From: Thalassotalea hakodatensis
GTDB taxonomy: Bacteria; Pseudomonadota; Gammaproteobacteria; Enterobacterales; Alteromonadaceae
Assembly: GCF_030295995.1 (NCBI RefSeq)
Contig: NZ_AP027365.1
Span: forward strand, 2,946,066-3,010,065
DNA: 64,000 nucleotides
Reading direction: 5' to 3'
Shown here: positions 4,495 to 58,917 of the stretch, piece by piece
Position numbering within the stretch: the stretch's first letter is position 1
Layout of the letters: each line of letters starts with the position of its first letter
Translations under genes and position numbers: made by a program
The notes under the pieces: model-generated
Database searches by the model: none
Seen by the model: the letters and a program-made list of their open reading frames with translations, nothing else
What the model was told of the DNA's origin: nothing

Positions 4495-4525
4495 AATTTT
4501 TATTTCCTTTTACTGCTGTAACGCA

Positions 4526-5251
4526 TTATTTCTTGGCTGACTTTTCAACCGAAGATAAAATTCCACGCCACATTTTAACTTCTTTACTATCAGGTCGTGC
4601 GCGATTAATAAATCGACGTAATTTAGTCATCACCAATCCAGGATGACTAGGTACGATAAAACCTGTTGCTTTTAATGCTTGTTCAAAGTGTTCAAACATT
4701 CTTTCTGTTTCTTCTACAACCGGGTAGTCTTCAATATCATTATTTTCGTATTGCTTATTTTCGCTCGCAAGAAAAGCCATACGCACTTCATAACTTAACG
4801 TTTGTACAGCCATCGCTAAGTTTAGTGAGCTATATTCAGGGTTAGCTGGAATTTGCACATGAAAATGACACAACTGTAACTCTTCGTTAGTCAAGCCACT
4901 ACTTTCACGACCAAACACTAATGCAACCGGATATTTTTGCCCTTCAGTCACCATTTTTTCGCCACACGTTCTAGGCTCTAACATTGGCCAAGGTAACGTG
5001 CGAGAACGAGCACTAGTACCGACCACTAAACCACAATCTTCAACGGCTTCTTCCAATGTCTTAACTACTTTTGCATTTGCTAATACGTCCGTAGCTCCTG
5101 CTGCCAAGGCTTGCGCTTGTCCATTTGGCATCTCAATAGGATCAACCAAATATAGTTCAGTTAACCCCATGGTCTTCATAGCTCGCGCTGCAGAACCGAT
5201 ATTTCGACAATCAGAAGTGTTTACTAACACAATACGTACAGAATCTAACAT
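4526..5251 (-). CDS. trmJ: TrmJ, tRNA Cm32/Um32 2'-O-methyltransferase
   Basis: This SPOUT-class methyltransferase methylates ribose 32 in the anticodon loop of several tRNAs using SAM. The N-terminus [20 protein letters not shown] aligns with the E. coli start MLQNIRIVLVETSHTGN, so I placed the start at the ATG at 5251; an in-frame TTG upstream at 5278 is unlikely. The knot motifs [16 protein letters not shown] and [17 protein letters not shown] are intact. Length 241 aa (E. coli 246). It is the first gene of a trmJ-cysE pair upstream of isc. Confidence 0.93.
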
Positions 5252-41285: not shown

Positions 41286-42563
41286 TTAATTTAGCATGGC
41301 TAATTGGTCATGATGTAACTTTTCACGAGCAACATATTTAAGCCATTGACTTGCTGATTTTGCAGATGATTTAATTTGCTCTGCTTCTTCAAATGCTGAC
41401 ATTGATTCAGTGAAGTTTTTCAGATTAAAATGACTCATGCCTACGATTAAATGCATGTCACCAAGTCGTGTTACACCGCCCCGCTCAATGGCCTTTTCGG
41501 CAGATTCTATTGCTAATTGCCACTTTTCAGTATTCAAATAAGCTTGTGCTAATTGCGCATCAAACTTACCTGATTCTGCTATTTCAGCAGCTTTCACAAG
41601 CACTGGTATTGCTTTTTGATCTTCTTTTGCCGCCATTAACGATTGTGCTAGCATTTCTAAGTGCTTTTCATTAGCAATCACATTACCCTGTGCAATTTCT
41701 TTTTCTAACAACACAGCAGCTTTATAAGGCACATTATTGTAGCGATAAAGCTGTGCTAAGGTAATAATATCTTGCGCTTTGCTAATAAAGCCTGCTTGCC
41801 ATGCCGATTCCATCGCTCCCATTTGTTTATCTTCGCGGCCAATTTCCCCGTACATCCCTGCAAGCTGCAACCAATATTCTGGTTTACTGTACAACTTAAC
41901 CATGAGTTCCATCACTTCTGTGACCTTCTCTGGTTGTTTCAACTCATAATAGTTTGCACGTTGTAACACTAACCAATTTTCTTTGGGTATTTCACCATTG
42001 TGTTTCGCTAACGTAACTGCATTTTCAATAGCGACTAGTGATTTTTCATACTGCTTAGCTTGGTAATAGACCTGAGCAAATAATACATGCTGCTGCGACG
42101 TTAACGCTTTGGTATTGACATTTTTCCACTGAGTTAAATAAGAAAGCGTTTGCGTATAGTTTTGTTGTTGCATTGATAATTGCGCAAGCGAATAAAGCGT
42201 CGACATGCGTAAAGACTCTGGAATAGCTTGCTCAGCAATTACCTTGTTAAAACTCTCTATGGCTTTTGCAGTATTCTCATCAGCGTAATACATAAAACCG
42301 TAAAAATTCCACAACATCGCTTTTTCATAGCTGTTCATACTGTCGATACGCGTTTTTACTTCATCTAATACTGCTAATCCTGCGGGCCTATCACCATCGT
42401 CAGCAATTTGTTGAGCGCGGGCTAATTGTGTATAAACACGATTACGCATTGCGGGCACTCGCACTGACTCACGCTGTTCTTCTGCTTGAGCATCGCCAGT
42501 AATGAAAGTAGGTGCTGTATATAGAACAGATACACCGAGTAACATACCAATTATTGATTTCAT
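41286..42563 (-). CDS. TPR protein of the TonB-energising operon
   Basis: A signal peptide (MKSIIGMLLGVSVLYTAPTF) is followed by about nine tetratricopeptide-like helical repeats over residues 40-420 (for example AKAIESFNKVIAEQAIPESL and WQLAIESAEKAIERGG). It is the last gene of the DUF3450-TtpC-ExbB-ExbD-TonB-TPR operon, starting 22 bp after tonB. Homologous TPR proteins accompany TonB2-type systems in vibrios and shewanellae. It probably acts in the periplasm as an adaptor for the TonB complex or receptor; the role is inferred. Confidence 0.85.
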   Translation of the reverse strand: MKSIIGMLLGVSVLYTAPTFITGDAQAEEQRESVRVPAMRNRVYTQLARAQQIADDGDRPAGLAVLDEVKTRIDSMNSYEKAMLWNFYGFMYYADENTAKAIESFNKVIAEQAIPESLRMSTLYSLAQLSMQQQNYTQTLSYLTQWKNVNTKALTSQQHVLFAQVYYQAKQYEKSLVAIENAVTLAKHNGEIPKENWLVLQRANYYELKQPEKVTEVMELMVKLYSKPEYWLQLAGMYGEIGREDKQMGAMESAWQAGFISKAQDIITLAQLYRYNNVPYKAAVLLEKEIAQGNVIANEKHLEMLAQSLMAAKEDQKAIPVLVKAAEIAESGKFDAQLAQAYLNTEKWQLAIESAEKAIERGGVTRLGDMHLIVGMSHFNLKNFTESMSAFEEAEQIKSSAKSASQWLKYVAREKLHHDQLAMLN

Positions 42564-42585
42564 TATCGTTCTCTCTTATTCGTGA

Positions 42586-43206
42586 TTAACCGTCAATTTC
42601 GAAAGAAATTTTATTTTGAACACCTGCAACTTCCGTTGCTTCACCATCAACAACCCGTGGTTTGTACTTAAACTTTAAAGCCGCATCCTTTGCAGCAGCA
42701 TCAAAAATACCTTCGGGTTTTGCTTCAAGTACGATTGGGTCTCGCACTGAGCCATTTTTCGTTACCGTAAACTCAACGATGACATAACCTTCTATCCCTC
42801 TTGACTGAGCTCGTCTTGGATAAATTGGCGCCACTTTAACGATCGGTAAATAGTCGCCATCTGCACTACTTAAATTTAAACCGCCAGATAAACCGGTATC
42901 TGCTTGAACATCAGCAGTAAAGTTGGTGCTTACGGCATTAGCATTAGGGTTTGCTTGCTGCATTTGCGGTTGCTGCATTTGTGGAGGTGGTGTTTTTGGC
43001 GTTGGCGGCTTTTGTGGCTTACGCTCTTTCTTTTGCACCGTTTCCTCTTGTTTTAATCGAATAAAATCAAGTACATTGCCTCGCGGTGGCTCAGACATAA
43101 CATTGTTACCACCAGCAATAAGGCGTTGCATACTCCACAATAGTGCAATCGTCACCAATACCGCTAATGCGAAAGATATTGCATATCGAGTGACATTATC
43201 AAACAT
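42586..43206 (-). CDS. tonB: TonB (TonB2-type) energy transducer
   Basis: The 206-aa protein has an N-terminal TM (ISFALAVLVTIALLWSMQRL; the family SHLS His is not obvious), a Pro/Lys/Gln linker (KPPTPKTPPPQMQQPQMQQ) and a C-terminal TonB domain (about 118-206, YPRRAQSRGIEGYVIVEFTV). It carries inner membrane proton energy to outer membrane receptors. The linker is short (about 60 aa), as in TonB2 proteins. It is encoded 2 bp after exbD. Confidence 0.93.
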   Translation of the reverse strand: MFDNVTRYAISFALAVLVTIALLWSMQRLIAGGNNVMSEPPRGNVLDFIRLKQEETVQKKERKPQKPPTPKTPPPQMQQPQMQQANPNANAVSTNFTADVQADTGLSGGLNLSSADGDYLPIVKVAPIYPRRAQSRGIEGYVIVEFTVTKNGSVRDPIVLEAKPEGIFDAAAKDAALKFKYKPRVVDGEATEVAGVQNKISFEIDG

Positions 43207-43208
43207 TA

Positions 43209-43622
43209 CTAAGCCTCTTCCGCTGCAATTGATACATCGAATACACCTGCTGCTCTTGCTGAATCCATCACTTTGATCAATACGTCAGTCGTTGCTTTTT
43301 TATCCGCTTGAATAACAACTGTACCTTGTGGGTTTTCAGCCTTTAAACGTTCAATGTTCGCTTGTACTGCACGTACATCAACACGACGTTTATTGATCCA
43401 AATTTCACCTTTATCACTAATAGCCACAAGAATATTGGCACGCTCTTTTTTTACGGCAGTCGCTGCTTCAGGACGATTTACTTCAATGCCTGCCTCTTTA
43501 ACAAAGGAAGCCGTAACAATAAAGAAAATAAGCAAGATGAACACAACATCAAGCATCGGTGTCATGTTAATTTCTTCAGCTTCTTCTTGTTCTTGTAAAA
43601 CTTTTGATAATTGAGAACGCAT
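43209..43622 (-). CDS. exbD: ExbD (ExbD2-type) proton channel subunit
   Basis: The 137-aa single-pass protein has the motif NMTPMLDVVFILLIFFIVTASF, whose Asp is the essential channel residue, then a periplasmic domain. It works with ExbB as the motor for TonB. It lies between exbB (23 bp upstream) and tonB (2 bp downstream). Confidence 0.95.
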   Translation of the reverse strand: MRSQLSKVLQEQEEAEEINMTPMLDVVFILLIFFIVTASFVKEAGIEVNRPEAATAVKKERANILVAISDKGEIWINKRRVDVRAVQANIERLKAENPQGTVVIQADKKATTDVLIKVMDSARAAGVFDVSIAAEEA

Positions 43623-43645
43623 GTTCTAACCTCTTAATCTCAAAT

Positions 43646-44173
43646 TTAGTGCGCTAATGGCAGCGCATCTTCCATTTGCTCTGTACGACGCTTGGTTTTA
43701 CGTTGTAACCAAGTGACAATAAATACGCCAGATAATGAACCAACCATACCAGCCATAGTAGGTATGGTTGCTTTTGATACCCCAGATGCCATTGAACGGG
43801 CATTACCACTGCCTGAAATAGCCATTACGTCGAATACTTCAATCATGCCGGTAACAGTTCCGAGTAAACCTAATAACGGACATAAAACAACTAAACTTTG
43901 AATTAATGCCACATTATGGTTTAGCGATTCTGTGACCCTAGATACATTGGCTATTCTAATTTGCTCAGCATTCCAAGAACTTCGTTCTCCCCTGCTTTGC
44001 CACGTTTGCATCATGTGTTTCTTCATTTTTTGATAACCTACAAAGAAAAAATACAAACGCTCGAATATAAGTAACCACATCAGGCATATAACACCGGCAA
44101 TAACTGTAAGTACCTGACCACCGGTGTCCAAAAATTCGCGTATGCTATTCATCAACTCGATGAATACAACCAT
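43646..44173 (-). CDS. exbB: ExbB (ExbB2-type) MotA/TolQ/ExbB channel protein
   Basis: The 175-aa protein has three TM segments, TM1 at about 20-40 (VLTVIAGVICLMWLLIF), and the paired TM2/TM3 core LVVLCPLLGLLGTVTGMIEVF and ATIPTMAGMVGSLSGVFIV. It forms the proton channel with ExbD. It starts 3 bp after the ttpC stop codon, implying tight coupling. Confidence 0.93.
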   Translation of the reverse strand: MVVFIELMNSIREFLDTGGQVLTVIAGVICLMWLLIFERLYFFFVGYQKMKKHMMQTWQSRGERSSWNAEQIRIANVSRVTESLNHNVALIQSLVVLCPLLGLLGTVTGMIEVFDVMAISGSGNARSMASGVSKATIPTMAGMVGSLSGVFIVTWLQRKTKRRTEQMEDALPLAH

Positions 44174-44176
44174 GAG

Positions 44177-45556
44177 CTAAGCTCCTTTCTTCGCCAATTC
44201 TTCGCTTTCAGCACGCTCAGCTATGATGCCTGCGCTTTGCTGTTGCAAAATATTAATAATGCCGCGACTACGCGTGTTTAATAACGTTGAGATAAAGACC
44301 ATTGGAATAGCAACAACCAAGCCTAATACTGTGGTAACAAGCGCTTGAGAGATACCACCAGCCATTAATTTAGGATCACCTGTACCAAATAATGTGATGG
44401 CTTGGAAGGTATTGATCATACCCGTTACCGTACCCAATAAACCGATAAGCGGTGCAACTACTGATACGATTTTTATTAACGTTAGTCGGCTCGTTATTTT
44501 GGGCACCTCGGCTAAAATACGTTCTGATAATTTCAATTCTAGCGTCTCAGTATCTGCATGTTTGTTCTCATCCTTAACAAGCATGACGCGCCCTAATGGG
44601 TTATCGTTTGAGGCCACATCCGTTTTTAATTGACGATTAATTTTGCTGCCCATTAAAAATAAGGTGATGAAACGTTCAAGGGCAATAAGTAATCCAACAG
44701 CACCGATGGCTAAGATGACATAACCTACCGCTCCACCTTGATCAACTCGCTCTTGTGTATCTGGCGCTTGAACAAGTAGACTTAAAATTGAACCGCCTGT
44801 TGGGTCTAACGCAAATGGCACTACATCACCATTACTTGACGTTAATGTTTGTGCTGACGATAAATAACGACTATTCGGTTGACGAATGAGTTCAGCCACA
44901 GAGCCTGTTTCATCGATATATTCAAGGTATTTACCCTTTGAAACTAAACTAAAACCACCAACTCGAATAACCTCTTGAGGCGACTTCGAGCCGTCTGCCG
45001 CGACAACTTCTCGGGTGAATTTGTGCACTTTACCGTTTTGCGTCATTTCACGTTGAAGCTCAAACCATAAACGTTCAATTTCTTCGATAGACGCCAGCTT
45101 TGATGTAGAGCCCATGCTTTGAGCGAATTCGTCTAAAAACTCCCCGCGGCCTGGAATTTGAGCAGAAACCACAGATGTTGTGAACTTACTGCGAGCATCA
45201 CCTGCAACTTGTTGTAATACACCGAAAAGCTCTTTTAACTCACCCATTCGCTTATTTAGCGCTTCGATACGATTACCTAGTTCAATTTCGTTATTTTGAA
45301 AAGTTTCTTCAAGTTCTGTACTCAACTTGACAGCTTGATCACGAGTATTTTTCGCATCAGCTAACATTTGATCTTGCTGTGCTTTACGTGCGTTAAAGTC
45401 AGCTTCTCGCTGTTTATTTTCTTTACTTTGAGCAATCTGTCCTTGCTCTAACTGCTTTAACAGTTGGTCAAGTGATGCAGCTTGTTGTTGAGCAAATACA
45501 CTTGTAGCCAACGTGCCAAGTAATAATGTGGTCAATAATTTGGTCATTTTCTTCAT
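44177..45556 (-). CDS. ttpC: TtpC-like long MotA/TolQ/ExbB protein
   Basis: The 459-aa protein has a signal-like N-terminus (MKKMTKLLTTLLLGTLATSVFAQQ), a long coiled-coil periplasmic region (about 25-260) and a C-terminal ExbB-type three-TM domain (GYVILAIGAVGLLIALERF, VAPLIGLLGTVTGMINTFQA, GISQALVTTVLGLVVAIPMV in pieces). This is the layout of TtpC, an extra subunit essential for TonB2-dependent uptake in Vibrio. It is the second gene of the operon, 11 bp after the DUF3450 gene. Confidence 0.9.
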   Translation of the reverse strand: MKKMTKLLTTLLLGTLATSVFAQQQAASLDQLLKQLEQGQIAQSKENKQREADFNARKAQQDQMLADAKNTRDQAVKLSTELEETFQNNEIELGNRIEALNKRMGELKELFGVLQQVAGDARSKFTTSVVSAQIPGRGEFLDEFAQSMGSTSKLASIEEIERLWFELQREMTQNGKVHKFTREVVAADGSKSPQEVIRVGGFSLVSKGKYLEYIDETGSVAELIRQPNSRYLSSAQTLTSSNGDVVPFALDPTGGSILSLLVQAPDTQERVDQGGAVGYVILAIGAVGLLIALERFITLFLMGSKINRQLKTDVASNDNPLGRVMLVKDENKHADTETLELKLSERILAEVPKITSRLTLIKIVSVVAPLIGLLGTVTGMINTFQAITLFGTGDPKLMAGGISQALVTTVLGLVVAIPMVFISTLLNTRSRGIINILQQQSAGIIAERAESEELAKKGA

Positions 45557-45567
45557 CGTTTTTCTCT

Positions 45568-46344
45568 TTACTCAGCAGATGTTTGTACAACAGGTGCCAC
45601 GATTAAATCTGGGGCTAACTGTTTGCGTGCAATGCGTAAGGCTTTGTTGATATCGGTACGATAGCTAGCATCTAATGGTTGCCAACTTTCACTTTGCTGA
45701 TCCCACATACCCATGTGCTGTCCATCACGGGTACGGTAAACTAAGCTCACGCGACCAATACGCAAAAAATCTACATCACGCTCTTCACCCGCAACGTTTT
45801 GTAAACCGGTATAAGCTTCTATGGTTCTTCCGTAATCAACTTCCACTTGGTAAGCTTCTAACACCTGTCTAAACTTTTCAGAAACAGATACGTCAGCACG
45901 AGTTAATGTTCGCTGTAATGCTTCAATACGGTTGTTGCGCTCTTCAGGTAAAAATGGCACATCAAGCGCCACAAACTGTGCAAGAGATTCGATCATACGT
46001 GCCATCAATGGTGAAACTTGACGTTCGATAACACTGACTTGTTCCATCGACACCGCTAATTGGGCTAATTCTGTTTGTTGGTTTTCAACCTGTGTTTGCA
46101 TCTGTTGGTTATAAACATTCAAACCATCTATTTCTTTATTTAATGCTTTGAACTGTTGAAGTTTGGTTTGAATTTGTTCGCTAATACGATCAACACGCTT
46201 TTGTGATTTATTCGCAGAAGCGGTTATTTTCTTACCGGCTTCAACAACATCTTTTACGTCTGTCTGTTGAGCTGCTGCGCTTGACAAGGACAAGGTAATG
46301 GCGCCGAATAACAAACTTGTAGGAGCCAACTTGAACATTTTCAT
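45568..46344 (-). CDS. DUF3450 periplasmic coiled-coil protein
   Basis: From ATG 46344 (GAAGG Shine-Dalgarno upstream) the 258-aa product has a signal peptide (MKMFKLAPTSLLFGAITLSL, cleaved near AAAQQ), a long coiled-coil segment (about 30-120, SQKRVDRISEQIQTKLQQFK in part) and a small C-terminal beta domain (RIGRVSLVYRTRDGQHMGMW). Its C-terminal region resembles the periplasmic part of the next gene (both have VGGF/RIGRVSLV-like strands), suggesting the two associate. It is the first gene of the TonB operon, behind a PhoB box. Confidence 0.9.
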   Translation of the reverse strand: MKMFKLAPTSLLFGAITLSLSSAAAQQTDVKDVVEAGKKITASANKSQKRVDRISEQIQTKLQQFKALNKEIDGLNVYNQQMQTQVENQQTELAQLAVSMEQVSVIERQVSPLMARMIESLAQFVALDVPFLPEERNNRIEALQRTLTRADVSVSEKFRQVLEAYQVEVDYGRTIEAYTGLQNVAGEERDVDFLRIGRVSLVYRTRDGQHMGMWDQQSESWQPLDASYRTDINKALRIARKQLAPDLIVAPVVQTSAE

Positions 46345-46473
46345 AGTTAAACCTTCATTATGTGTGAACTGCATAAAAGCAGCTGGAAAAACAAATTGTT
46401 TTTCCGAGTAAATAATGAAGCAAAGTGTAATAACTAATTGTGACAGTAAAGTTTCAGGAATATTGCAACTTTA

Positions 46474-46495
46474 TTAAATGACAAATAAATGACAA
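46474..46495 (-). promoter_or_regulatory. PhoB box upstream of the DUF3450-TonB operon
   Basis: On the minus strand two 11-bp direct repeats, TTGTCATTTAT then TTGTCATTTAA, match the Pho box consensus (CTGTCATAAAT repeated). The TGTCA cores are exactly 11 bp apart. The box points towards the DUF3450 gene, whose start lies 130 bp downstream. An AT-rich candidate -10 (CAATATTC region) follows about one turn later, as expected for PhoB-activated promoters. A further TGTCA lies at 46445-46441. Confidence 0.72.
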
Positions 46496-46753
46496 TTTTT
46501 TTACAAGGAATAAAGTACATCAATCACTTAGCCCGCCGAAAAGAAATGATTCAATACATGATGTTTACTTTCTGTAGTATTTATACGTTTCCTAGTAAAA
46601 AGTTCATACGGCTTAATCATTATTGCTCCCCACCGTAACAACAACAAAAATAAACACTTTAAATCAACAAGTTAAACAACAAAAAGAGTTGGAGTAGTTA
46701 TTGCTTAATCACCTTAAATGTATTGTTTTAACATCAATAAGGATAAAAAGGTT

Positions 46754-48082
46754 ATGGAATTAGCAGTGTTTTTTAAATCACTATTGTTATTAGCATTTCT
46801 ATTAATGCTGGGAAACGCGATAAAACACACATTGCTTAAAAGATTTATTATTCCTTCTTCACTCATAGCAGGAGCTCTTGCTTTACTGTTAAGTCCGCAG
46901 CTACTTGGTCAATTCATTAACATTACCCTCAAAGAACAATCACTTTGGATTGATGATACCGTGATTGATATCTGGAAAAAGTTACCTGGGTATTTAATTG
47001 TTGTTGTATTTGCTGGTTTATTTTTAGGTAAAAAAATTCCGACAATAAAACAGTCTGTTAATAAAAGTTTACCCAACCTTAGCTTTGGTTATACCATCGC
47101 CATCGGCCAGTACATCGTAGGTATGATCGCAGCCTTACTCATTTTAGTGCCGTTATTTGATACTAAAGCGTTTGCAGGGGCCTTAATTGCCATAGGCTTT
47201 CAAGGCGGACACGTTACGGTAGCTGGCTTACAATCAACCTTTGAAGGGCTTGATTTCGCTAAAGGCATAGATTTAGGCTTAGGCATCGCTACTATTGGAC
47301 TCATCAGTGCAATTACTTTAGGCACAATCATGTCGAATAAAGTTGGCGGTTCAAACCAAGAACTTGAAATGACTGATGATGATAACAACCTTGAGGTAAA
47401 AGATAGGCCTTTCGGGTTGCAATTTGCCATTTTAGGCTCTGTGATCATGCTTGCTTGGTTAGCCTTATCTGGTTTGAAAGTTGCGGAAGAACAGCTTTTT
47501 CCTGAAACATCAATTTCAATTTTTAAATATATGCCGCTGTTCCCAGTTGCGATGCTTACAGGGTTATTAGTTCAGGTAATTTTAAATAAAACCGGTGCAG
47601 GTAACCTCATCAGTAATTATCAAATTAATTTATTATCTAATCTATCACTCGACTTACTAATAGTCGCGGCGTTAGGTGCATTAAATTTATCTGTACTTGC
47701 TGAATATTGGCAGAGCATTGTATTATTAGGCGTTGTTGGTGTGGTTTATAGTACCGCTATTTATTTTATTTTTGGCAGCTGGTTCTTTAACAAAGACTGG
47801 AAAGTGCGAGGCATTGGTGAAGTAGGTCAATCAATGGGGACGACTGCCGTTGGGTTATTAATGTTAAAACAAGCGACAACTTCGCCAGATAAACATATCC
47901 GACCTTTTAGTTACAAGCAGCCTTTATACGAACCAATTGTAGGTGGCGGAATTGTTACTGCATTGGCAATCCCTACCATCGCTAACTTCGGGCCATGGGT
48001 ATTCACTGCGATTATGACAACGATACTCATCTCGATCATTAGTGGGTTTACGTTTTATAAAAAGCGTTACCAGAATGAGTAG
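46754..48082 (+). CDS. GltS-type sodium/glutamate symporter family protein
   Basis: The 442-aa polytopic membrane protein (start ATG 46754, preceded by AAGG) has about twelve hydrophobic segments in two inverted halves, with GFQGGHVTVAGL and later EVGQSMGTTAVGLL as the gated re-entrant motifs of the glutamate:Na+ symporter (ESS) family. Substrate is probably glutamate or a related carboxylate, but the sequence is divergent from E. coli GltS. It is divergent from the TonB operon and read on the plus strand with the two following genes. Confidence 0.78.
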   Translation: MELAVFFKSLLLLAFLLMLGNAIKHTLLKRFIIPSSLIAGALALLLSPQLLGQFINITLKEQSLWIDDTVIDIWKKLPGYLIVVVFAGLFLGKKIPTIKQSVNKSLPNLSFGYTIAIGQYIVGMIAALLILVPLFDTKAFAGALIAIGFQGGHVTVAGLQSTFEGLDFAKGIDLGLGIATIGLISAITLGTIMSNKVGGSNQELEMTDDDNNLEVKDRPFGLQFAILGSVIMLAWLALSGLKVAEEQLFPETSISIFKYMPLFPVAMLTGLLVQVILNKTGAGNLISNYQINLLSNLSLDLLIVAALGALNLSVLAEYWQSIVLLGVVGVVYSTAIYFIFGSWFFNKDWKVRGIGEVGQSMGTTAVGLLMLKQATTSPDKHIRPFSYKQPLYEPIVGGGIVTALAIPTIANFGPWVFTAIMTTILISIISGFTFYKKRYQNE

Positions 48083-48146
48083 CGGTCAGAACAGTTAAAC
48101 GTTTATAATCACGGGGGAACTATAAAGATAAGTTGGTTTAATAAAT

Positions 48147-48788
48147 TTGAATACTACTAACATTAACAAAGTGTTTATCATTGGCTTACCCCGAACGGGT
48201 ACCACGAGTATTTGTAAAATGTGTTTAGATTTTGGCTTTCATGTTGCACATACCGCGTATACCGATAAAACCTTTGAGTTTGCTACAGTGTTAGCCGATA
48301 CCCCCATGTTTGCCGACTACAAAGCACTTGATCTCGCCTACCCTAATAGTAAGTTTGTCTTACTTGAGCGCGAGCTTACTGACTGGCTACCGTCAATAAA
48401 GCAGTTATTACAACGGATGTATGAGAATGTAACACGCACAGATGGTGGTTTTAACTCAATAATCAAACGCTGTTATCAACAAACATTCTCACCATTTACC
48501 TTTGATAACATTAATGATGATGCTTTTTTATCGCAAGCCTATGTAAAACATCAACAAGAGGTTTTACATTATTTTAATCAGCAGCCAAGCAAGTTACTGT
48601 CTATTAATATTCAGCAAAGCAACGCGGTAGAAGAATTGAGCAAATTTTTATCCATTAAAACTGACACAACCCATTTTGAACATTTAAACAAAGGCGGTAA
48701 AGTTACCGCCTGGAAAGATATAGAACATCCCAAGAAAGTGGCATCAACAAGAAAGGGAAGAGCAACCGCCCTACCTTATTCACTTTAA
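48147..48788 (+). CDS. Sulfotransferase-like protein
   Basis: The 213-aa product starts with the PAPS 5'-phosphosulfate loop FIIGLPRTGTTSICKM (residues about 9-24) and a later 3'-binding segment YPNSKFVLLERELTDWLPS. This fits the small bacterial sulfotransferase/P-loop family used to sulfate cell-surface glycans or lipids. There is no ATG: the apparent start is TTG 48147, or GTG 48171 just before the P loop. It lies 65 bp after the symporter gene. Confidence 0.72.
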   Translation: MNTTNINKVFIIGLPRTGTTSICKMCLDFGFHVAHTAYTDKTFEFATVLADTPMFADYKALDLAYPNSKFVLLERELTDWLPSIKQLLQRMYENVTRTDGGFNSIIKRCYQQTFSPFTFDNINDDAFLSQAYVKHQQEVLHYFNQQPSKLLSINIQQSNAVEELSKFLSIKTDTTHFEHLNKGGKVTAWKDIEHPKKVASTRKGRATALPYSL

Positions 48789-48810
48789 CAAGGATATAAC
48801 GATTAACACA

Positions 48811-49173
48811 TTGCTATCTATTATTCATACTATTCGCGTCGCGATAGGCGAAGGCATATGGAAATCACTCGCATTTATTATTGTCTTACTGCTTGCAGGA
48901 CCTGAGCTAATAATAGGTATGGAGCTAATGGCACTAATAGAAGTGGTGGGTGCATCGACTTTTGTTATCGCTTACTTAACTGGCTTAAAATTGTTGATGA
49001 TTAAAATAAAAAAACGCTATCTTACTTTTGAGAAATACAGTGTTTTATTTCTTCCTACTTGGCAATACTTCAAAGCAATGCCAAGTTTATGTTTACACGC
49101 AATTCCTCACCGTACCGTTATCATCTCTTTATTTGCTACTGTTTACCTTGGTATGTTGTTCATACTCATTTAA
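48811..49173 (+). CDS. Small polytopic membrane protein, unknown
   Basis: The product of about 120 aa has three hydrophobic segments (about 18-38 SLAFIIVLLLAGPELIIGME, 45-65, and 102-120 IISLFATVYLGMLFILI). I do not recognise the family. The start is uncertain: TTG 48811, or ATT 48802, which sits 7 nt behind AAGGA (48790-48794) at better spacing. It follows the sulfotransferase by 22 bp and a terminator follows. Confidence 0.55.
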   Translation: MLSIIHTIRVAIGEGIWKSLAFIIVLLLAGPELIIGMELMALIEVVGASTFVIAYLTGLKLLMIKIKKRYLTFEKYSVLFLPTWQYFKAMPSLCLHAIPHRTVIISLFATVYLGMLFILI

Positions 49174-49186
49174 CACCTTTAACCAT

Positions 49187-49222
49187 TAAAAAAGCCCCTT
49201 ACTTTTCAGTAAAGAGCTTTTT
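49187..49222. terminator. Bidirectional terminator between membrane protein and TonB receptor genes
   Basis: AAAAAGC...TTACT (49189-49203) pairs with AGTAA...GCTTTTT (49208-49222) with a small internal mismatch and a 4-nt loop. T-rich ends occur in both directions between the convergent genes. Confidence 0.65.
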
Positions 49223-49248
49223 AGCAGATGTTAGGTTACGACAAAGAA

Positions 49249-51930
49249 TTAAAATTCGTAGGTATAACTTAAACTAACACTTGTACCTATTTCTTTTTCT
49301 CTTACCGCAATATCAGACTGAGTAACTTCTTGTGACTCATCCAGTAAGTTCTTTACTTTCAGTTTCACTTTCGAGTTAAAGTTTGGATAATACGTGTAAA
49401 CTAAGTCAACGGCATGAAATGGCTGCTCCATAGCATCTTCACTACCACCTAAACCTGATGCCACAATTCGCTCACCAAACACATTGTAGACTAAAGATCC
49501 TGAATGATTGCCATTTGCTGAATCGTAGTTTAATTGAAAATTAACAACATATTCTGAATGACCAGTCATACGCTTCGTCGGATTGGTTAAATTCCCCGCT
49601 AAGGCTGGATCAATACTAACCTCAGAATCACTGAAGGTAATATTACCTGAAGTGAAAAAACCATCGGCTAAATACGTTAGATCATGCATCCATTCAACTT
49701 CAACACCTGTAACTTCCGCTGTTTCACCGTTCACAAATGTTGCATTGTAAGACGCATCATTTGCGGTTAGCACTTTTTCAATCGGCGATGCAATATCTTT
49801 ATAAAAGGCCGCTACAGTAAAGTTATCACCATTGTCAGCGTAGTATTCATAACGAAGATCATAATTTTTCATTGGGCTACTTTGCAGACTTACACGGCCA
49901 AAAGTACGAAAATCTGTCAGAGGATCAAAATAAGCAACTGGCACTACTTCTCGTAAATCAGGACGAACAACCGTTTCACCATAACTTGCACGTACTTGAT
50001 AACGTTCACCACCCAAATAAGTAAAGGCCAATGATGGATATAGATCATCATCATTGATACTACCCGCTTCAATTTTTTCTGGCGCATAATAAATATCAAG
50101 TTCTTTCTTGCCAAAAATTAAGCTTGATGTACCAATTGAAGTTTGCTTAAACTCTTCATATCTAACACCACCACTAAAGCGTAGATCACCGTATATAAAA
50201 TCAAATGAACCGTAGACAGCATCAATTTTTTGAGCAGCAAGATAATCATCAGCATCAGGTGCAGAAGGCTCATTAAAATCAACTAATATACGTTGTTCTT
50301 CAATAAACGCATCCGTTAAGTAACTGGCATTATTCAACGGTGAATGAGAGCCATCATTAATCGTTATACTAGAACCAGCGTCATTATCGACTGTATAACT
50401 AGATGTTGTATAGTAACGACCGCGATCTGAGAAATCATAACCCGCTTTTAACTCTAGTTCATATCCTTCATTGTAAATCGGTAAGGTGATGTTACCACCA
50501 TATGACTTCACATTATCTTCCATGTCAGTGTAGTTATATAATGCTCGGTTATCATCCCCGGTAATACTAGAACCAGAATAAACACCATCTTCAAACCTAT
50601 CAATAAAACGATAGCTTGCATCTAATGGTATTTCTGTTTTCGCTTCCGATTCTGTATACTGCCAATCAGCACCAATCCCCCAATAATCAACAAAGGTATG
50701 CTGTCCTATTACTTGATTAACCAATAATGTACGCTCTTCATACTTAAATTGATGAAGTCTATCGGCACGACCGTCATTAACAATCGTATAAATGTTACTA
50801 CCGCCAGGACTTTGTATTTCACCCACTTCAACTTCATCTTCATTATCAACTAAATATAAGTTATTAAATGAAATTGAATGGTTATTTAATTTATAACCAA
50901 AGTTTAATACACCATTGTAGCGCTCAGTCTCGGTAGTTACGCTTGAATTTTTTACAGCGGTATAGCAACTGGCTGCAATGTCTTCTGCCGTATCCAATAA
51001 AATTGAACAATTATCAGTAAGGTTTTGGCTAACAATATTCGTAGACTTGTCTGCAGAATCCCATTGACTTTCGTAGGAAAAAGCGGCTAAAAACCCGATA
51101 GTTCCACCAAAATATGTTTCATCGAAACTATTACCAATATGCGCTTTAATATCATATTTAGGGTCAAGTGATTGCTCTTTGATAGTTAAATCTCTTGGTA
51201 ATGCTTTTAACAATTCATTATTAGTAGCAACAGCAATTTCAGAGACTGTTTGAGTTTCTGTTGCTGTAATGCCATCTCGTTTTATAATATTGTCAATGCT
51301 AAAGTTGCCGCGATATTGCACAATGGCATCTTCGAGCTTTTTAGGAATATTTCCGCTAGGTCGCTCATAAGTATATCCGTCATCCGCACTAGAGTCATAG
51401 CCTACACCCACCTCAATACTAGAAGTAAATTGACTCGGTACCGATTTAGTTCGAATATCAATTGAACCACCACCAAATGCGGCAGGCATGTTGGCTGAAA
51501 ATGCTTTTTGTACCGCCATGCTTTCAATAATACTTGATGGGATAATATCAAGAGGTACAACGTTACGTGTAAGATCTGGACTTGGTATGGTGGCACCATT
51601 TAAGCGTGCGCTTGAATAACGCTCACCTAAACCACGAACATAGATAAATTTGCCATCTACCAACGTCAATCCAGTTACTCGTCGTAATGCAGAAGCAGCA
51701 TCACTATCACCAGTACGCGACATTTGTTCTGAGCCTAGAATATCGGCAACAAATGCTTGATTTTTACGTTCAGCAATTACTGATGCAGCACTTCCTTGCA
51801 ACCTGGTTGCTTTTGCTACAACCTCTTCCATTACCTGTTCTTCTTCAGGGGCAAGTGCATAACCAGTAACGCTGAACAAACCCAACCCGACAGCAACAGC
51901 TAGCTTTTGGAGTTTGTATTGATTTGTCAT
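49249..51930 (-). CDS. TonB-dependent receptor, probably Pho-regulated
   Basis: The 893-aa outer membrane receptor has a signal peptide (LAVAVGLGLFSVTGYALAP), a plug domain (about 40-165, with ADILGSEQMSRTGDSDAASA, VTGLTLVDGKFIYVRGLGER and IPSSIIESM) and a 22-strand barrel ending SLSYTYEF. The plug is of the SusC-like/TonB-dependent transporter type and not obviously a siderophore receptor. It is the second gene behind a PhoB box and a beta-helix lipoprotein gene (83-bp spacing with a terminator-like hairpin). Together they look like a phosphate-starvation uptake pair; the substrate cannot be read from sequence. Confidence 0.88.
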   Translation of the reverse strand: MTNQYKLQKLAVAVGLGLFSVTGYALAPEEEQVMEEVVAKATRLQGSAASVIAERKNQAFVADILGSEQMSRTGDSDAASALRRVTGLTLVDGKFIYVRGLGERYSSARLNGATIPSPDLTRNVVPLDIIPSSIIESMAVQKAFSANMPAAFGGGSIDIRTKSVPSQFTSSIEVGVGYDSSADDGYTYERPSGNIPKKLEDAIVQYRGNFSIDNIIKRDGITATETQTVSEIAVATNNELLKALPRDLTIKEQSLDPKYDIKAHIGNSFDETYFGGTIGFLAAFSYESQWDSADKSTNIVSQNLTDNCSILLDTAEDIAASCYTAVKNSSVTTETERYNGVLNFGYKLNNHSISFNNLYLVDNEDEVEVGEIQSPGGSNIYTIVNDGRADRLHQFKYEERTLLVNQVIGQHTFVDYWGIGADWQYTESEAKTEIPLDASYRFIDRFEDGVYSGSSITGDDNRALYNYTDMEDNVKSYGGNITLPIYNEGYELELKAGYDFSDRGRYYTTSSYTVDNDAGSSITINDGSHSPLNNASYLTDAFIEEQRILVDFNEPSAPDADDYLAAQKIDAVYGSFDFIYGDLRFSGGVRYEEFKQTSIGTSSLIFGKKELDIYYAPEKIEAGSINDDDLYPSLAFTYLGGERYQVRASYGETVVRPDLREVVPVAYFDPLTDFRTFGRVSLQSSPMKNYDLRYEYYADNGDNFTVAAFYKDIASPIEKVLTANDASYNATFVNGETAEVTGVEVEWMHDLTYLADGFFTSGNITFSDSEVSIDPALAGNLTNPTKRMTGHSEYVVNFQLNYDSANGNHSGSLVYNVFGERIVASGLGGSEDAMEQPFHAVDLVYTYYPNFNSKVKLKVKNLLDESQEVTQSDIAVREKEIGTSVSLSYTYEF

Positions 51931-51955
51931 GTTAGTTTCCTAATTCAGTGTTCAA

Positions 51956-51989
51956 TAAAAAGGCGCCAAGAGAGTGTTAACGGCGCCTT
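51956..51989 (-). terminator. Intercistronic terminator/attenuator before the TonB receptor
   Basis: On the minus strand AAGGCGCC (51989-51982) pairs with GGCGCCTT (51967-51960) over a 14-nt loop and is followed by TTTTT (complement of 51957-51961). It sits between the lipoprotein stop codon and the receptor start. A partial terminator here would give more lipoprotein than receptor mRNA. Confidence 0.8.
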
Positions 51990-52013
51990 CTTGATTTGGA
52001 TTTCAGGTGGAAA

Positions 52014-53618
52014 TTAGTCTGCTTTAGCTGCTGTTACTGCAGTCTCTACCCACTTGTACCAAACTGAACTAGTATCTTGGTCTGAAACAGCACCAATGTA
52101 ATTTACAGTATCGAAGAAGCTTGAATCTAAGCCTGATAGGTCATTTGCATCAATAGTAATTGCAGTTGAACTGGTGTTTGTCGCAAAACCGCTTTCTGAA
52201 AGTACGTCTGCATCAGCTGCAACACGGATATTAGAGCCGTCGTTTTCATACCAAGCTTCTACAGTCTTACCTGCTGGCATTTGTGTTGCGTCTTTAAATT
52301 CACTTGCACAAGCCATTACCGAGTTATTGAACATGATTTCAGCAGAATTCTTAAGTCCATCAGTAGTAAATTCAATACACTCTGAACCATTTGGATTTTC
52401 ACGCTTAACAAATAATGCGTTGTAATAGTTTGATTTAATTGCGTCATCAAATTTAATAGCTTGTGATAATTTTTCATCACGTACCGAAGCGCCATCTGTT
52501 GTTACAACAGTAACGTTAGCAATCGTTGGAAATGATGCTGGTGCTTCACTATAATCTGCACCGCCGTTCTGCTCACCATCAGTTTCAAAGCCATTATTAC
52601 CCATAAATGCAGTAGCGCCGTTACGCGTCGTCACAGTTCCATGCTCGATATATAAGAATTGTGCATTACCTTGCCAGCCTGCATCAATATCTATCGCATC
52701 ATCTTGCGTATCAGTTACCACAATGTGCTTTATATTTGCTGCGCCACCAAAAAATTCGATACCATCATCGTAACCTTGATGAATATGAATATAATCAAAT
52801 GAAGAGCCTGAACCTACAGCATTTAATGTCAAAGAGTTTAAATCTTCACCAGGTTCACCACCCACTTTAGGACCCGAACCAGCATACCAAATCTTAGCAA
52901 ATTTGATATTACCACTACCGTCAGTGTTATCATTACCACCGAAGAATGTAGTTACACCTTCGAATTCTTGGCTACAAGTATCTGCAGCACGCTGTGCATT
53001 AGTACAATGATTGGTTATACCGTTACCATTTATTAAGATACCACCCCAATCAGAAAACTCAGCGCCTTTACCTTCAAGATCATGACGGTCATAGGCAAAA
53101 GCAGAGGTAAACGTGATTGGCTTTTCTGCTGTACCTACTGCTTGAATTTTTGCACCACGTGCGATTCGTACAATCGCTTCACCTGATTTAAAAGCTAAGG
53201 TAGCACCAGGTTTCACTGTCATCGTTGGACCATTAGTTGGTACGACAAAACCTTCACTTGTGCGGCCATCTTCACCAATTAAAAGCGCATCTTCAAATAC
53301 ATGAACACCGCCATCTGGCAATTCATCAAAAGTGATGTTTGCAGTTATTGAAATATTCTTACTTGCAAACGAATCGTTATATAGACAATCTTTACCATCA
53401 AATGTACCTTCAACAGTACCAACAGCTGAGTCATAACTGGCACATTCAACAGCATCTTGCTGCCCACCGTTATCGGTGTTATTCGAATTGTTAACACTGT
53501 TATCTGTTGTTGTACTGTTATCATTTACTGTTGGATTAATTTTGATATCGCCGCCACAACCTACTAATGCTAATGCACAAGCAACCGCACTGACTTTAAA
53601 TAATGATTTCAATTGCAT
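52014..53618 (-). CDS. Beta-helix surface/periplasmic lipoprotein, TonB-receptor partner
   Basis: The 534-aa product (ATG 53618, GGAG Shine-Dalgarno) has a lipoprotein signal ending LALVGCGGD, an Asn/Thr/Ser-rich linker (DNSTTTDNSVNNSNNTDNGG), and then a right-handed parallel beta-helix-like body. It has repeating strands such as PTMTVKPGATLAFKSGEAIV and KPITFTSAFAYDRHD, and the family motif FSDWGGILINGNG. Three internal Cys pairs may stabilise it (CTNAQRAADTC). It is the first gene of an operon with the TonB-dependent receptor, directly behind a PhoB box. It probably captures substrate or serves as the receptor's surface partner. No enzymatic motif was recognised. Confidence 0.85.
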   Translation of the reverse strand: MQLKSLFKVSAVACALALVGCGGDIKINPTVNDNSTTTDNSVNNSNNTDNGGQQDAVECASYDSAVGTVEGTFDGKDCLYNDSFASKNISITANITFDELPDGGVHVFEDALLIGEDGRTSEGFVVPTNGPTMTVKPGATLAFKSGEAIVRIARGAKIQAVGTAEKPITFTSAFAYDRHDLEGKGAEFSDWGGILINGNGITNHCTNAQRAADTCSQEFEGVTTFFGGNDNTDGSGNIKFAKIWYAGSGPKVGGEPGEDLNSLTLNAVGSGSSFDYIHIHQGYDDGIEFFGGAANIKHIVVTDTQDDAIDIDAGWQGNAQFLYIEHGTVTTRNGATAFMGNNGFETDGEQNGGADYSEAPASFPTIANVTVVTTDGASVRDEKLSQAIKFDDAIKSNYYNALFVKRENPNGSECIEFTTDGLKNSAEIMFNNSVMACASEFKDATQMPAGKTVEAWYENDGSNIRVAADADVLSESGFATNTSSTAITIDANDLSGLDSSFFDTVNYIGAVSDQDTSSVWYKWVETAVTAAKAD

Positions 53619-53786
53619 TTCATGTACTCCGAAGAATATTATTGTTAATTGTTCAAACTGATTAAGTGAAGCCTTCGTAGCGTCCTGCCATAAAAACTTC
53701 ACTTAATCAGCTTGATTTAAGTTGAGCGTTATCCTACGGATGAAAAATGACAGAATTGTTTTAGAAATATGTAGTTTTTGTTTCGC

Positions 53787-53808
53787 TAAAATGACAAAAA
53801 GATGACAA
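53787..53808 (-). promoter_or_regulatory. PhoB box upstream of the lipoprotein/TonB-receptor operon
   Basis: On the minus strand the direct repeats TTGTCATCTTT and TTGTCATTTTA have TGTCA cores 11 bp apart, as in the Pho box consensus. It lies about 169 bp upstream of the lipoprotein start codon. A third CTGTCAT core lies four 11-bp steps further downstream (53752-53748). The box is almost identical to the one before the TonB operon at 46474-46495. Confidence 0.72.
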
Positions 53809-56184: not shown

Positions 56185-58917
56185 TTAAAATGAATAACGA
56201 ACGCCTAAGAGTACTCTTCGACTTAAATCTGTTACCCCATAAGGTAAATATCCCGTTTTATGAACAAACGTTTTTGCTACCATATTCTCATCAGTCAGAT
56301 TTAACACTTGAAACTGCACTTGCAAATTATCATTCACACTGTAGTTTGCTGAAAAATCTAATTGACCATAATCATCCATAAAACGAGGTTCGCCAAAATC
56401 ATCAGAAGTTTGCGCTAAATAACGCTCACGCCACGCATAAGAAAGCTTAGCATCTAGCGTACCGTCATCATAATATAGCGACGCGTTGAAGCTCGTTGGT
56501 GATAATCCGGGTAACCCTGCACTTCGCACATCATTTTCGATACCAAAATCAGCATCACTTGAAGTCTTAGTATAATTAGCTAAGAAGCCAAAGTTTTGTA
56601 ATATACCTTCGGGCGCGAAGCTAAAAGGTTGCTGGTATGATAATTCAAACCCTTTAATGGAAGCTGAAGCGCCATTAGACGGCTGCGTAAAAAATACATC
56701 GCCGTTAAACACTTCAGGGCTAAGTTGCGTAACAAAGTCTCTATTAGCGGTAAACGTTGTTGTATCAATCAAGCCATCTAAATCTTTCCTAAAAACATTT
56801 GCTGCTAGCAATGCTTCATCGGAGAAGTACCATTCAATACTCAAATCTAAGTTATCTGAGGTAAAAGGTTTTAATTCTGGGTTACCGCGTTGCCCTGTCG
56901 CTGAGTTTACATCAGGTGCAAATATGCGTTCCGACGGCGCTAAGTCAGGTAAGTTAGGCCGAGTTAGCGTTTTAGAATATGCAGCTCTTAGTAATACCCC
57001 CTCAGAAAGTTCATATCGTAAGCTAGCGCTAGGCAATACTTCAGAATAGTCACTTTCAAAAGCTATTGGGTCAATCCCCCCAAGTGCAGTGGTAAAACCA
57101 TCTATATTTTGTGTGGTTTTTACATAACGTAAACCAACATTAGCGGTTAGCTCTTCCCAATCAAAGTCTGCTTTAACATAAGCATTTAAGGTTTTTTCTT
57201 CAACTTGATAGGAATTCAAAGCCGCAGAGCTTGCTCTGTTTTGAACTGATGTACCAGGAACAAGTGAACTTCCAGTTGGTGAAACATTACCCCCTTGAAA
57301 CCAAACATCTTGGAAACCATTTGGGTCAACTGAAAACATTTTATGGGTAAAGCTAGGATCAGCACCGTCAACATCATAGTCAAGCATAATCATTGAGTCT
57401 GCAAGGCTTGGGCCCATGTTAGGGTTCCATCCAGCCTCTCGGCCTATGCGATAATCTTGTTCAACCACTTCTTTATCTTGCACTGTATAACGAAGGCCAA
57501 AATCGACTTTATTCATAAATTCATGATCAAAAAAGCGCGTAAAGTCAATTTTTGATGTCACTTCTTTTGCATCATCTTCACTTGGTCGAAAAATTAACAC
57601 GTTTAACGAGAAGTCTTCAGGGTTTGAAGAAAAATCAGTTAATGTGCTGTTAAAGTCTACGTAATCACCACGCACTTTGTATGAAAGAATACCGGGCACA
57701 TTTCCGCCAGTTTCATTGTTAAGCTTGAATGATAAAAGTGATTGTTTTCGGTTAGCTTCTCGGCTTGAAGCACCGATATAAGGAGTGATTTCCCAGTAAT
57801 CGTTTGGTTTCCAGGTTGCCGTTAAAGAGGTTTGAAAAAACGTATCGTCAATATCAGTAATTCTTGGCCCAACCCTATGTTGAACATTATCAAAACTTCC
57901 TTCAACGATAACTCCATTTTCAATCACTAAACTATCTTGCAACGCTTTAACACCTAAATGCTCCAAGGGAATATCATTTCGGTGAGCCGCTTTTTCATTG
58001 GTTAGTTCTGCATAAATACTATTAAAGGTAAAGGCTAATTCATCTGAAGGGCTGTATTGAAGTGCGAGTGTACCTGCTGTATTTTCACGATCTTCTAAAA
58101 AAGTATATAATCTCGTGCCATTTGCTACTAAAGCACTTCCCATTGGTGAATTAGGATCTACGTCAGGATCGATTACTGAAAGTGGGCGCCATACACCGTT
58201 TTCTGCACCATCAGATCTAAACTCACTTTTTGAATGGAATAAACCTATTGAAAAGCCAAATTTATCATCAATATTATTACTAACTGTCACAAAAGCTCGT
58301 GGATCAATACTGTCGGTAGTATCGCTATAGTTCCCTTGTAGAGAGGAAGAAAATTTCAAACCTCTATGCTGAAATGGTTGAGGCGTTTCTAACGTCACTA
58401 AACCTGCCAAGCCACCTTCACTTTGACTAGCGTCTGATGACTTAGTTACGGTAGCATTACTAAATAATTCAGATGGCAGTAATTCAAAACTAAAGCCTCG
58501 GCCACCGCCATTTGTGCCTAACCTGCCAGCACTTCCGCCGCCTGGTGCTGTCATGCCATTTATTTCAACACGCGTAAATTGCGGCCCTAAACCTCGTACA
58601 TTAATTTGTGAACCTTCACCATTCTGGTTTCTATTAATCGTAACACCCGGGATCCGCTGTAACGACTCTGATAAATTCATGTCTGGAAATTTACCTAAAT
58701 CTTCAGAACTAATTGAATCTGAAACATTACTGTCATTATATTTATTATTCAAAGAACGTACGATACTGCCCCTAACACCTTTTACCGTAATAACTTCGAC
58801 ATTGTCTTCTGCGCCAGAACTTTCTTCCGAACTTGCAGCATGTACCAGACCTACTTGACTGGCTGAGATAGCCAAACAGCAGGCTAAATATGATTTTTTA
58901 AACTTGTTTGAATGCAT
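56185..58917 (-). CDS. TonB-dependent receptor (TonB-Xanth-Caul type)
   Basis: The 910-aa receptor has a signal peptide (LACCLAISASQVGLVHAA), the TonB-box-like IVITVKGVRGSI region (VEVITVKGVRGSIVRSLNNK in part) and a plug with SISSEDLGKFPDMNLSESLQ and INVRGLGPQFTRVEINGMTA. The barrel ends LLGVRYSF. The GKFPDMN signature is that of TIGR01782-type receptors, which often import oligosaccharides in Alteromonadales, Xanthomonas and Caulobacter. It is preceded by an RpiR regulator gene 472 bp upstream on the same strand. Monocistronic, with its own terminator. Confidence 0.92.
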   Translation of the reverse strand: MHSNKFKKSYLACCLAISASQVGLVHAASSEESSGAEDNVEVITVKGVRGSIVRSLNNKYNDSNVSDSISSEDLGKFPDMNLSESLQRIPGVTINRNQNGEGSQINVRGLGPQFTRVEINGMTAPGGGSAGRLGTNGGGRGFSFELLPSELFSNATVTKSSDASQSEGGLAGLVTLETPQPFQHRGLKFSSSLQGNYSDTTDSIDPRAFVTVSNNIDDKFGFSIGLFHSKSEFRSDGAENGVWRPLSVIDPDVDPNSPMGSALVANGTRLYTFLEDRENTAGTLALQYSPSDELAFTFNSIYAELTNEKAAHRNDIPLEHLGVKALQDSLVIENGVIVEGSFDNVQHRVGPRITDIDDTFFQTSLTATWKPNDYWEITPYIGASSREANRKQSLLSFKLNNETGGNVPGILSYKVRGDYVDFNSTLTDFSSNPEDFSLNVLIFRPSEDDAKEVTSKIDFTRFFDHEFMNKVDFGLRYTVQDKEVVEQDYRIGREAGWNPNMGPSLADSMIMLDYDVDGADPSFTHKMFSVDPNGFQDVWFQGGNVSPTGSSLVPGTSVQNRASSAALNSYQVEEKTLNAYVKADFDWEELTANVGLRYVKTTQNIDGFTTALGGIDPIAFESDYSEVLPSASLRYELSEGVLLRAAYSKTLTRPNLPDLAPSERIFAPDVNSATGQRGNPELKPFTSDNLDLSIEWYFSDEALLAANVFRKDLDGLIDTTTFTANRDFVTQLSPEVFNGDVFFTQPSNGASASIKGFELSYQQPFSFAPEGILQNFGFLANYTKTSSDADFGIENDVRSAGLPGLSPTSFNASLYYDDGTLDAKLSYAWRERYLAQTSDDFGEPRFMDDYGQLDFSANYSVNDNLQVQFQVLNLTDENMVAKTFVHKTGYLPYGVTDLSRRVLLGVRYSF

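Follow-up and report, generated by a model that had tools for sequence, protein, structure and literature searches.

Iron, vitamin B12 and sugars are the main substrates known for TonB systems, and phosphate is usually taken to cross the outer membrane through porins. Here we describe two operons of the marine bacterium Thalassotalea hakodatensis, located in a 64,000-nucleotide stretch (the window) of a single-contig genome of 4.28 Mb. One encodes a TonB motor and the other a lipoprotein and a TonB-dependent receptor, and a Pho box lies upstream of each. Together they very probably constitute a phosphate-starvation module with a dedicated motor. The parts are known, the motor being of a Vibrio type and the lipoprotein-receptor pair of a Caulobacter type; the combination of PhoB control, pstS and motor was not found in our search of the open-access literature. 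Titles and the openings of abstracts in that literature gave no report of a TonB/ExbBD/TtpBCD cluster in a Pho regulon, regulon databases such as RegPrecise lying outside the search.

The closest known counterpart of the pair is found in Caulobacter, where ElpS (CC0170) is a lipoprotein that is produced when phosphate is scarce and reportedly sits on the cell surface, and where ElpS secreted into supernatants is associated with alkaline phosphatase activity (PMC2996285, in excerpt). By profile and context, with the CC0170 sequence itself outside the comparison, the window lipoprotein appears to belong to the same family. Searches with the lipoprotein profile detect elpS-receptor pairs in other classes as well. 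One locus of alphaproteobacterial type found by this profile (L091) has the pair followed by T2SSC, GspD and GspF, and in Indioceanicola profundi (L198, found by tblastn) the pair is followed by a gsp run, which is the layout described for Caulobacter elpS and cc0171 (PMC2996285, in excerpt). Whereas the Caulobacter pair adjoins type II secretion genes, the window pair is accompanied by a TonB motor and, in some relatives, also by pstS; no type II secretion genes were found among the window open reading frames (ORFs) scanned. The Caulobacter PhoB regulon includes TonB-dependent receptors, according to excerpts of a 2024 paper (PMC11208175).

The secretion-linked layout raises the possibility that TonB powers a task other than import, such as release or surface remodelling of the lipoprotein, or signalling through the receptor, since the pairs in L091 and L198 adjoin type II secretion genes with no TonB motor seen in the stretch (PMC2996285, in excerpt). 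We consider this unlikely: no sigma or anti-sigma family was found among the subset of window ORFs scanned, and a Pfam scan of the receptor reveals no extra N-terminal domain.

The closest known counterparts of the motor are in Vibrio. The TonB2 system imports siderophores, is induced by low iron, and requires TtpB2 and TtpD2 for siderophore use (PMC6957404, in excerpt). TonB3, whose operon starts with a receptor gene (PMC6957404), has no apparent iron-related cargo and is not iron-induced, as far as the excerpted sections of PMC6957404 and PMC4260858 report. Both have the same six motor genes as the window (PMC6957404, in excerpt). Uptake genes of the Pho regulon, such as the pst operon and phosphate porins, have a box like those in the window, and pstS is linked in some relatives of the locus; the window differs in that an energised receptor would substitute for the passive porin or work alongside it. 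SusCD systems of Bacteroidota also have a lipoprotein gene that adjoins a TonB-dependent receptor gene. The likeness is one of gene pairing, as the window lipoprotein is a predicted beta-helix and not a SusD fold.

The features of the two operons and their upstream regions are as follows.

41286-42563, minus strand: ttpD-like TPR protein, last gene of the motor operon (PF07719 and other TPR families)
42586-43206, minus strand: tonB (PF03544, TonB_C)
43209-43622, minus strand: exbD (PF02472)
43646-44173, minus strand: exbB (PF01618, MotA/ExbB)
44177-45556, minus strand: ttpC-like long MotA/TolQ/ExbB protein (PF01618 in the C-terminal part; P group of the TtpC tree, 100/100, 30 chosen rows)
45568-46344, minus strand: ttpB-like DUF3450 protein, first gene of the motor operon (PF11932, E=1e-87)
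46479-46494, minus strand: Pho box TGTCATTTATTTGTCA upstream of ttpB, exact TGTCA-N6-TGTCA
49249-51930, minus strand: TonB-dependent receptor, TIGR01782-like (Plug PF07715; TIGR01782 E=1e-54, under the cut-off of that model)
52014-53618, minus strand: ElpS-type lipoprotein of 534 amino acids, predicted parallel beta-helix (lipobox cysteine 21; AlphaFold2 model; receptor neighbour)
53792-53807, minus strand: Pho box TGTCATCTTTTTGTCA upstream of the lipoprotein-receptor operon, exact TGTCA-N6-TGTCA

ORFs and Pfam matches identify the motor operon (41286-46344) as a six-gene TonB motor of the Vibrio TtpB/TtpC/ExbB/ExbD/TonB/TtpD type. Its DUF3450, TtpC, ExbB, ExbD, TonB and TPR genes form one run, as in TtpBCD-type systems. 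An initial annotation of the window had proposed these gene identities, and those of the lipoprotein and receptor, and the families bear them out. It had also called the operons divergently separated; they are instead co-directional, because both lie on the minus strand and are parted by three plus-strand ORFs (46718-49173). The first of these, at 46718-48082, encodes a 454-amino-acid membrane protein without a Pfam or NCBIfam match at E≤0.001, which we take to resemble a GltS-type symporter. Across the genome, 50 plug-domain matches and 8 TonB_C matches lie above Pfam cut-offs, and therefore the window receptor and TonB are one each among many.

Exact TGTCA-N6-TGTCA sites occur twice in the window, one upstream of each operon and both oriented toward the operons, with the two TGTCA half-sites at the 11-bp spacing of the Pho regulon. 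The two boxes agree at 14 of 16 bases, which confirms the near-identical pair of PhoB boxes in the initial annotation. A weaker third half-site (46490-46506) adjoins the ttpB box, so that the array reaches 46506. Shuffled versions of the window are expected to contain 0.12 exact sites, and 2 of 100 shuffles reached two. The whole genome has 15 exact sites, against 3 for the reversed pattern. Five of these 15, apart from the focal ones, precede genes for PstS, PhoB, a porin, a PstC-like permease and a PF01663 phosphodiesterase; the last counts as box-preceded only with a probable internal methionine start. The genome also encodes both regulators (PhoR, PF11808, at L008 3133-4437 and an adjoining response regulator, PhoB, at 4447-5148). 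A laxer pattern, TGTMAY-N5-TGTMAY, has 15 matches in the genome against 8 for its control, and is therefore weak evidence by itself in one genome.

We surveyed this laxer pattern across 31 named loci, 20 contexts from further genomes, 20 more regions and the window, in an interval around the start of the longest reading frame of each gene, 300 bp before it and 30 bp after it. Some rows come from close relatives, L084 and L152 represent a single locus, and Fisher tests on the counts, which ignore relatedness, serve as description. With at most one mismatch, boxes occur before 50 of 65 elpS genes (36 exact) and 35 of 43 ttpB genes (12 exact), compared with 26 of 535 (8 exact) for the background of all other ORFs of at least 150 amino acids in these loci. 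Boxes at this threshold are absent before genes internal to the motor operon (ttpC, 0/41; exbB, 0/38; tonB, 0/39; ttpD, 0/32), and precede the receptor gene in 4 of 73 rows; exbD is mostly under the length limit and contributes 1 row. On the reverse strand, 3 of 43 ttpB genes have a box at one mismatch or fewer. The initial annotation had suggested scanning relatives for both operons and their boxes, and had named absence of the repeats as evidence against its proposal; the repeats are present before most orthologues, as these counts show. Each of the four other Thalassotalea loci (L011-L014) has exact boxes at both operons. As a positive control, pstS genes of 30 loci in the family have TGTCA-N6-TGTCA at one mismatch or fewer in 23 cases. 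A position weight matrix built from 28 pstS boxes was dropped, being ruled by the spacers of related pstS genes; the two-half-site pattern was adopted because the matrix overlooked plain boxes.

The boxes could in principle be chance matches in AT-rich DNA, and 8 of the 15 exact genome sites are indeed inside genes or near genes without an evident phosphate link. This explanation is highly improbable, because boxes at both promoters are conserved across genera, are rare before internal genes, and are never exact before the paralogous motor described next.

The genome has a second cluster of DUF3450, TtpC, ExbB, ExbD, TonB and TPR genes (at 1187091, L191), which serves as an internal control. 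Our control set consists of this cluster and 19 other motor copies away from elpS; for those 19, the first five genes are visible in the fetched stretch. Of these 20 copies, 18, including L191, together make up one side of a 100/100 branch in a TtpB tree of 64 rows. This paralogous motor has no exact box in 18 copies and a box with one mismatch in 1 of 18. Two motors away from elpS, L182 and L187, group with the type of the window and bear exact boxes. With a distant copy from a different order (G102) in the TtpB tree, no branch has the type of the window alone on one side. When G102 is left out, a TtpC tree built from 30 chosen rows, for which the tool warned of long branches, separates the type of the window (100/100), the paralogues (99/97) and three Vibrionaceae copies (100/100). 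The window motor thus stands apart from these three copies, the V. vulnificus sequences being outside the comparison.

The Vibrio TonB3 layout was considered as a counterpart and set aside: the three Vibrionaceae records form a separate TtpC group, and the copies from Vibrio sp. and Photobacterium sp. have neither elpS nor a matching receptor. These copies are preceded by an ORF of ~700 amino acids, by eye presumably a receptor, that does not match the window receptor profile. None has an exact Pho box, and one Photobacterium site is a Pho box with one mismatch.

Because its six motor genes match those of the siderophore-importing Vibrio TonB2 (PMC6957404, in excerpt), the locus might be an iron-type system that imports a siderophore or other metal chelate, with Pho boxes that are incidental. 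However, the window motor is set apart from both the other DUF3450-TonB cluster of its family (L191) and the three Vibrionaceae copies, it is linked to ElpS and sometimes to pstS, and its boxes are conserved. For 43 linked ttpB genes, the upstream sequence differs from a Fur 19-mer at 6 to 10 positions at best, a weak comparison because the paralogous cluster (6 to 9 mismatches) is without a near match either. Such an iron-type system is very unlikely.

Linkage among the genes suggests that they act together in phosphate starvation. The receptor gene follows the lipoprotein gene in every named locus (31 of 31), and the two are neighbours in 19 of 20 further contexts; in L079, a second lipoprotein-like ORF lies between the two. 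The motor, whole or cut by the edge of the locus, shares the locus with the receptor pair in 23 of the 31. Gene order varies, with the motor first in 18 Pseudoalteromonas loci and the lipoprotein-receptor pair first in L074, L082 and L083. Distances between genes were counted among the matches listed, which cover at least 116 genomes with elpS, 52 with pstS and at least 103 with DUF3450. Among these, 69 of 93 genomes have DUF3450 and elpS no more than 25 kb apart, on the same strand in 69 of 69. A minority have linked pstS, which is within 3 kb of elpS in 14 of 41 genomes, always upstream and on the same strand (14/14), and within 400 bp in 10. Three regions (L169, L170 and L171) contain the nine-gene run pstS-elpS-receptor-ttpB-ttpC-exbB-exbD-tonB-ttpD, and the PstS of L170 (G323) is 88% identical to the PstS of the window genome. 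Where a linked pstS has no box of its own, as in most cases, the box sits between pstS and elpS. Within the sampled family, the lipoprotein profile matches 125 of 147 genomes (E≤1e-20), and, counted by eye, two or more DUF3450 genes occur in 115 of the 125 genomes with elpS versus 5 of 22 without it. The profile matches 46 of 299 sampled genomes of the phylum (E≤1e-10).

The module may travel as one block. The 239-kb plasmid pBGP9 of Alteromonas macleodii contains it together with its own phoB-phoR and pstS (L196 11804-28137), in the order phoB, phoR, pstS, 2OG oxygenase, lipoprotein (annotated as 'hypothetical protein'), receptor, DUF3450, two MotA/ExbB, ExbD, TonB and TPR. An exact box precedes the lipoprotein gene, and boxes with one mismatch precede phoB and the DUF3450 gene.

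In three loci (L167 1655-2479, L168 16872-17693 and L196 15003-15794), a 2OG-Fe(II) oxygenase gene separates pstS from the lipoprotein gene. Genome G102, which belongs to another taxonomic order, has two lipoprotein copies, L077 and L078, each with an exact Pho box. Beside one of them are a distant TonB motor cluster and a 1071-amino-acid receptor with a CarboxypepD_reg domain.

Control by phosphate starvation and coupling of motor to receptor, as proposed in the initial annotation, thus have strong comparative-genomic support, because the boxes are conserved, linkage is kept in two gene orders, pstS (and once phoB-phoR) is in the block, and the paralogous motor is boxless. We consider it likely that the locus is a PhoB-controlled phosphate-acquisition module that operates as follows. 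At low phosphate, PhoB would bind both boxes and switch on both operons. The ElpS-type beta-helix lipoprotein, predicted to be at the cell surface, would pick up its ligand, either phosphate or a small phosphorus compound, and hand it to its partner TonB-dependent receptor. The dedicated TonB-ExbBD motor, with TtpB, TtpC and TtpD, would then power import across the outer membrane, the receptor opening under the force of the motor, and phosphate would be carried inward by PstS in the periplasm and by the Pst ABC transporter. Such a mechanism would provide the ElpS family with a partner receptor and an energy source, and one lineage of multi-part TonB motors with a role; the locus makes powered phosphate uptake directly testable.

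Several observations weigh against this interpretation. In Caulobacter, expression of cc0171 was alike in rich and poor medium, ElpS production continued when cc0171 was deleted, and intracellular phosphate had no detectable change on the switch to poor medium, all given as data not shown in the excerpted sections of PMC2996285. Boxes at one mismatch or fewer are missing in 15 of 65 elpS rows (L020, L023, L024, L025, L033, L034, L035, L036, L040, one of two in L079, L085, L087, L089, L091 and L092) and in 8 of 43 ttpB rows (L017, L018, L019, L040, L041, L160, L165 and L171). Two of the elpS misses, L020 and L025, arise because the longest reading frame was used as the start; at the aligned start, both have a TGTAAC-N5-TGTCAT box. 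The reverse strand of elpS has no exact box and yet 13 of 65 at one mismatch or fewer, above the background of 28 of 535. No motor was found in the fetched stretch of 8 of the 31 named loci (L016, L022, L023, L024, L028, L031, L032 and L034). Among the matches listed, pstS is not within 3 kb of elpS in 27 of 41 genomes, including that of the window, and in four of these 27 it is found within 30 kb, at 4-22 kb, three times on the opposite strand. Finally, linked pstS copies mostly have no box of their own (4 of 13 pstS rows in the surveyed loci at one mismatch or fewer).

Lipobox cysteine 21 is invariant among 28 lipoprotein sequences, whose mean column identity is 68%, and the window lipoprotein is 98% identical to its counterpart in Thalassotalea sp. 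1_MG-2023. An AlphaFold2 model predicts a parallel beta-helix (predicted template modelling score, pTM, 0.84) with the first 54 residues unordered. The beta-helix lipoprotein of the initial annotation is thus upheld as a lipoprotein by its conserved cysteine, and the helix comes from this predicted model. A Pfam scan finds no family above cut-offs in the lipoprotein, and PDB sequence searches with the lipoprotein and with the receptor return no match. The top Foldseek match of the model in the PDB is a PL6 lyase (E 6e-4); among the 50 matches listed, TM-scores range from 0.12 to 0.39 with large root-mean-square deviations. The lipoprotein may share a fold class with PL6 lyases, and from so weak a match a common function does not follow. 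Hits in a viral fold library are weak and fall on generic beta-helix and tailspike proteins. The lipoprotein occurs in one-, two- and three-domain forms, with open frames of about 540, 950 and 1370 amino acids. The receptor model is poor (predicted local distance difference test, pLDDT, 61.8; pTM 0.62), with residues 1-167 under 50.

TonB-dependent receptors usually import bulky ligands. The module might accordingly import a larger phosphorus source under phosphate starvation, such as a nucleotide, a phosphoglycan, a lipid-derived compound or polymeric phosphate, with the lipoprotein acting as a polymer binder or as a lyase or hydrolase. The weak PL6 lyase match is consistent with this idea, as are the Pho-box phosphodiesterase elsewhere in the genome, a single Ppx/GppA gene between receptor and motor in one locus (L164), and the alkaline phosphatase activity associated with secreted Caulobacter ElpS (PMC2996285, in excerpt). 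However, no phosphatase, nuclease or other hydrolase recurs among the 20 neighbouring ORFs scanned, which are a subset of the intervening ORFs, and the recurrent neighbour of elpS is pstS, of a phosphate-binding family. The bulky source favoured by the initial annotation is therefore not supported and is left as a somewhat doubtful possibility.

Since pstS recurs among the neighbours scanned and a hydrolase does not, phosphate itself is favoured as the substrate of the proposed PhoB-controlled importer, a tentative choice and a better guess than a bulky source. A bolder and rather speculative version of this proposal is that the motors form a distinct, phosphorus-devoted TonB lineage that pumps inorganic phosphate over the outer membrane. 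The lipoprotein might then be a surface phosphate catcher, the receptor might replace porin diffusion at extreme scarcity, and PstS might receive the ion.

Some further features of the window and related genomes merit mention. A second TonB-dependent receptor (PF00593) is encoded nearby at 56185-58917, without an exact Pho box. Elsewhere in the genome, an exact Pho box at L001 3064-3079 precedes the probable start of the PF01663 phosphodiesterase/nucleotide pyrophosphatase. Three 11-bp Pho half-sites in a row (L194 4456-4483; genome 4114455-4114482, minus strand) are found at the start of a methyl-accepting chemotaxis gene (PF00015), which is a possible phosphate-starvation chemoreceptor. Compared with the window, locus L014 of Thalassotalea sp. 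PP2-459 is 97-100% identical in its flanks and motor, but 86% in the lipoprotein and 76% in the receptor, and the receptor pair therefore seems to have been exchanged between near-identical strains. Such an exchange seems to be what selection on a surface target would predict.

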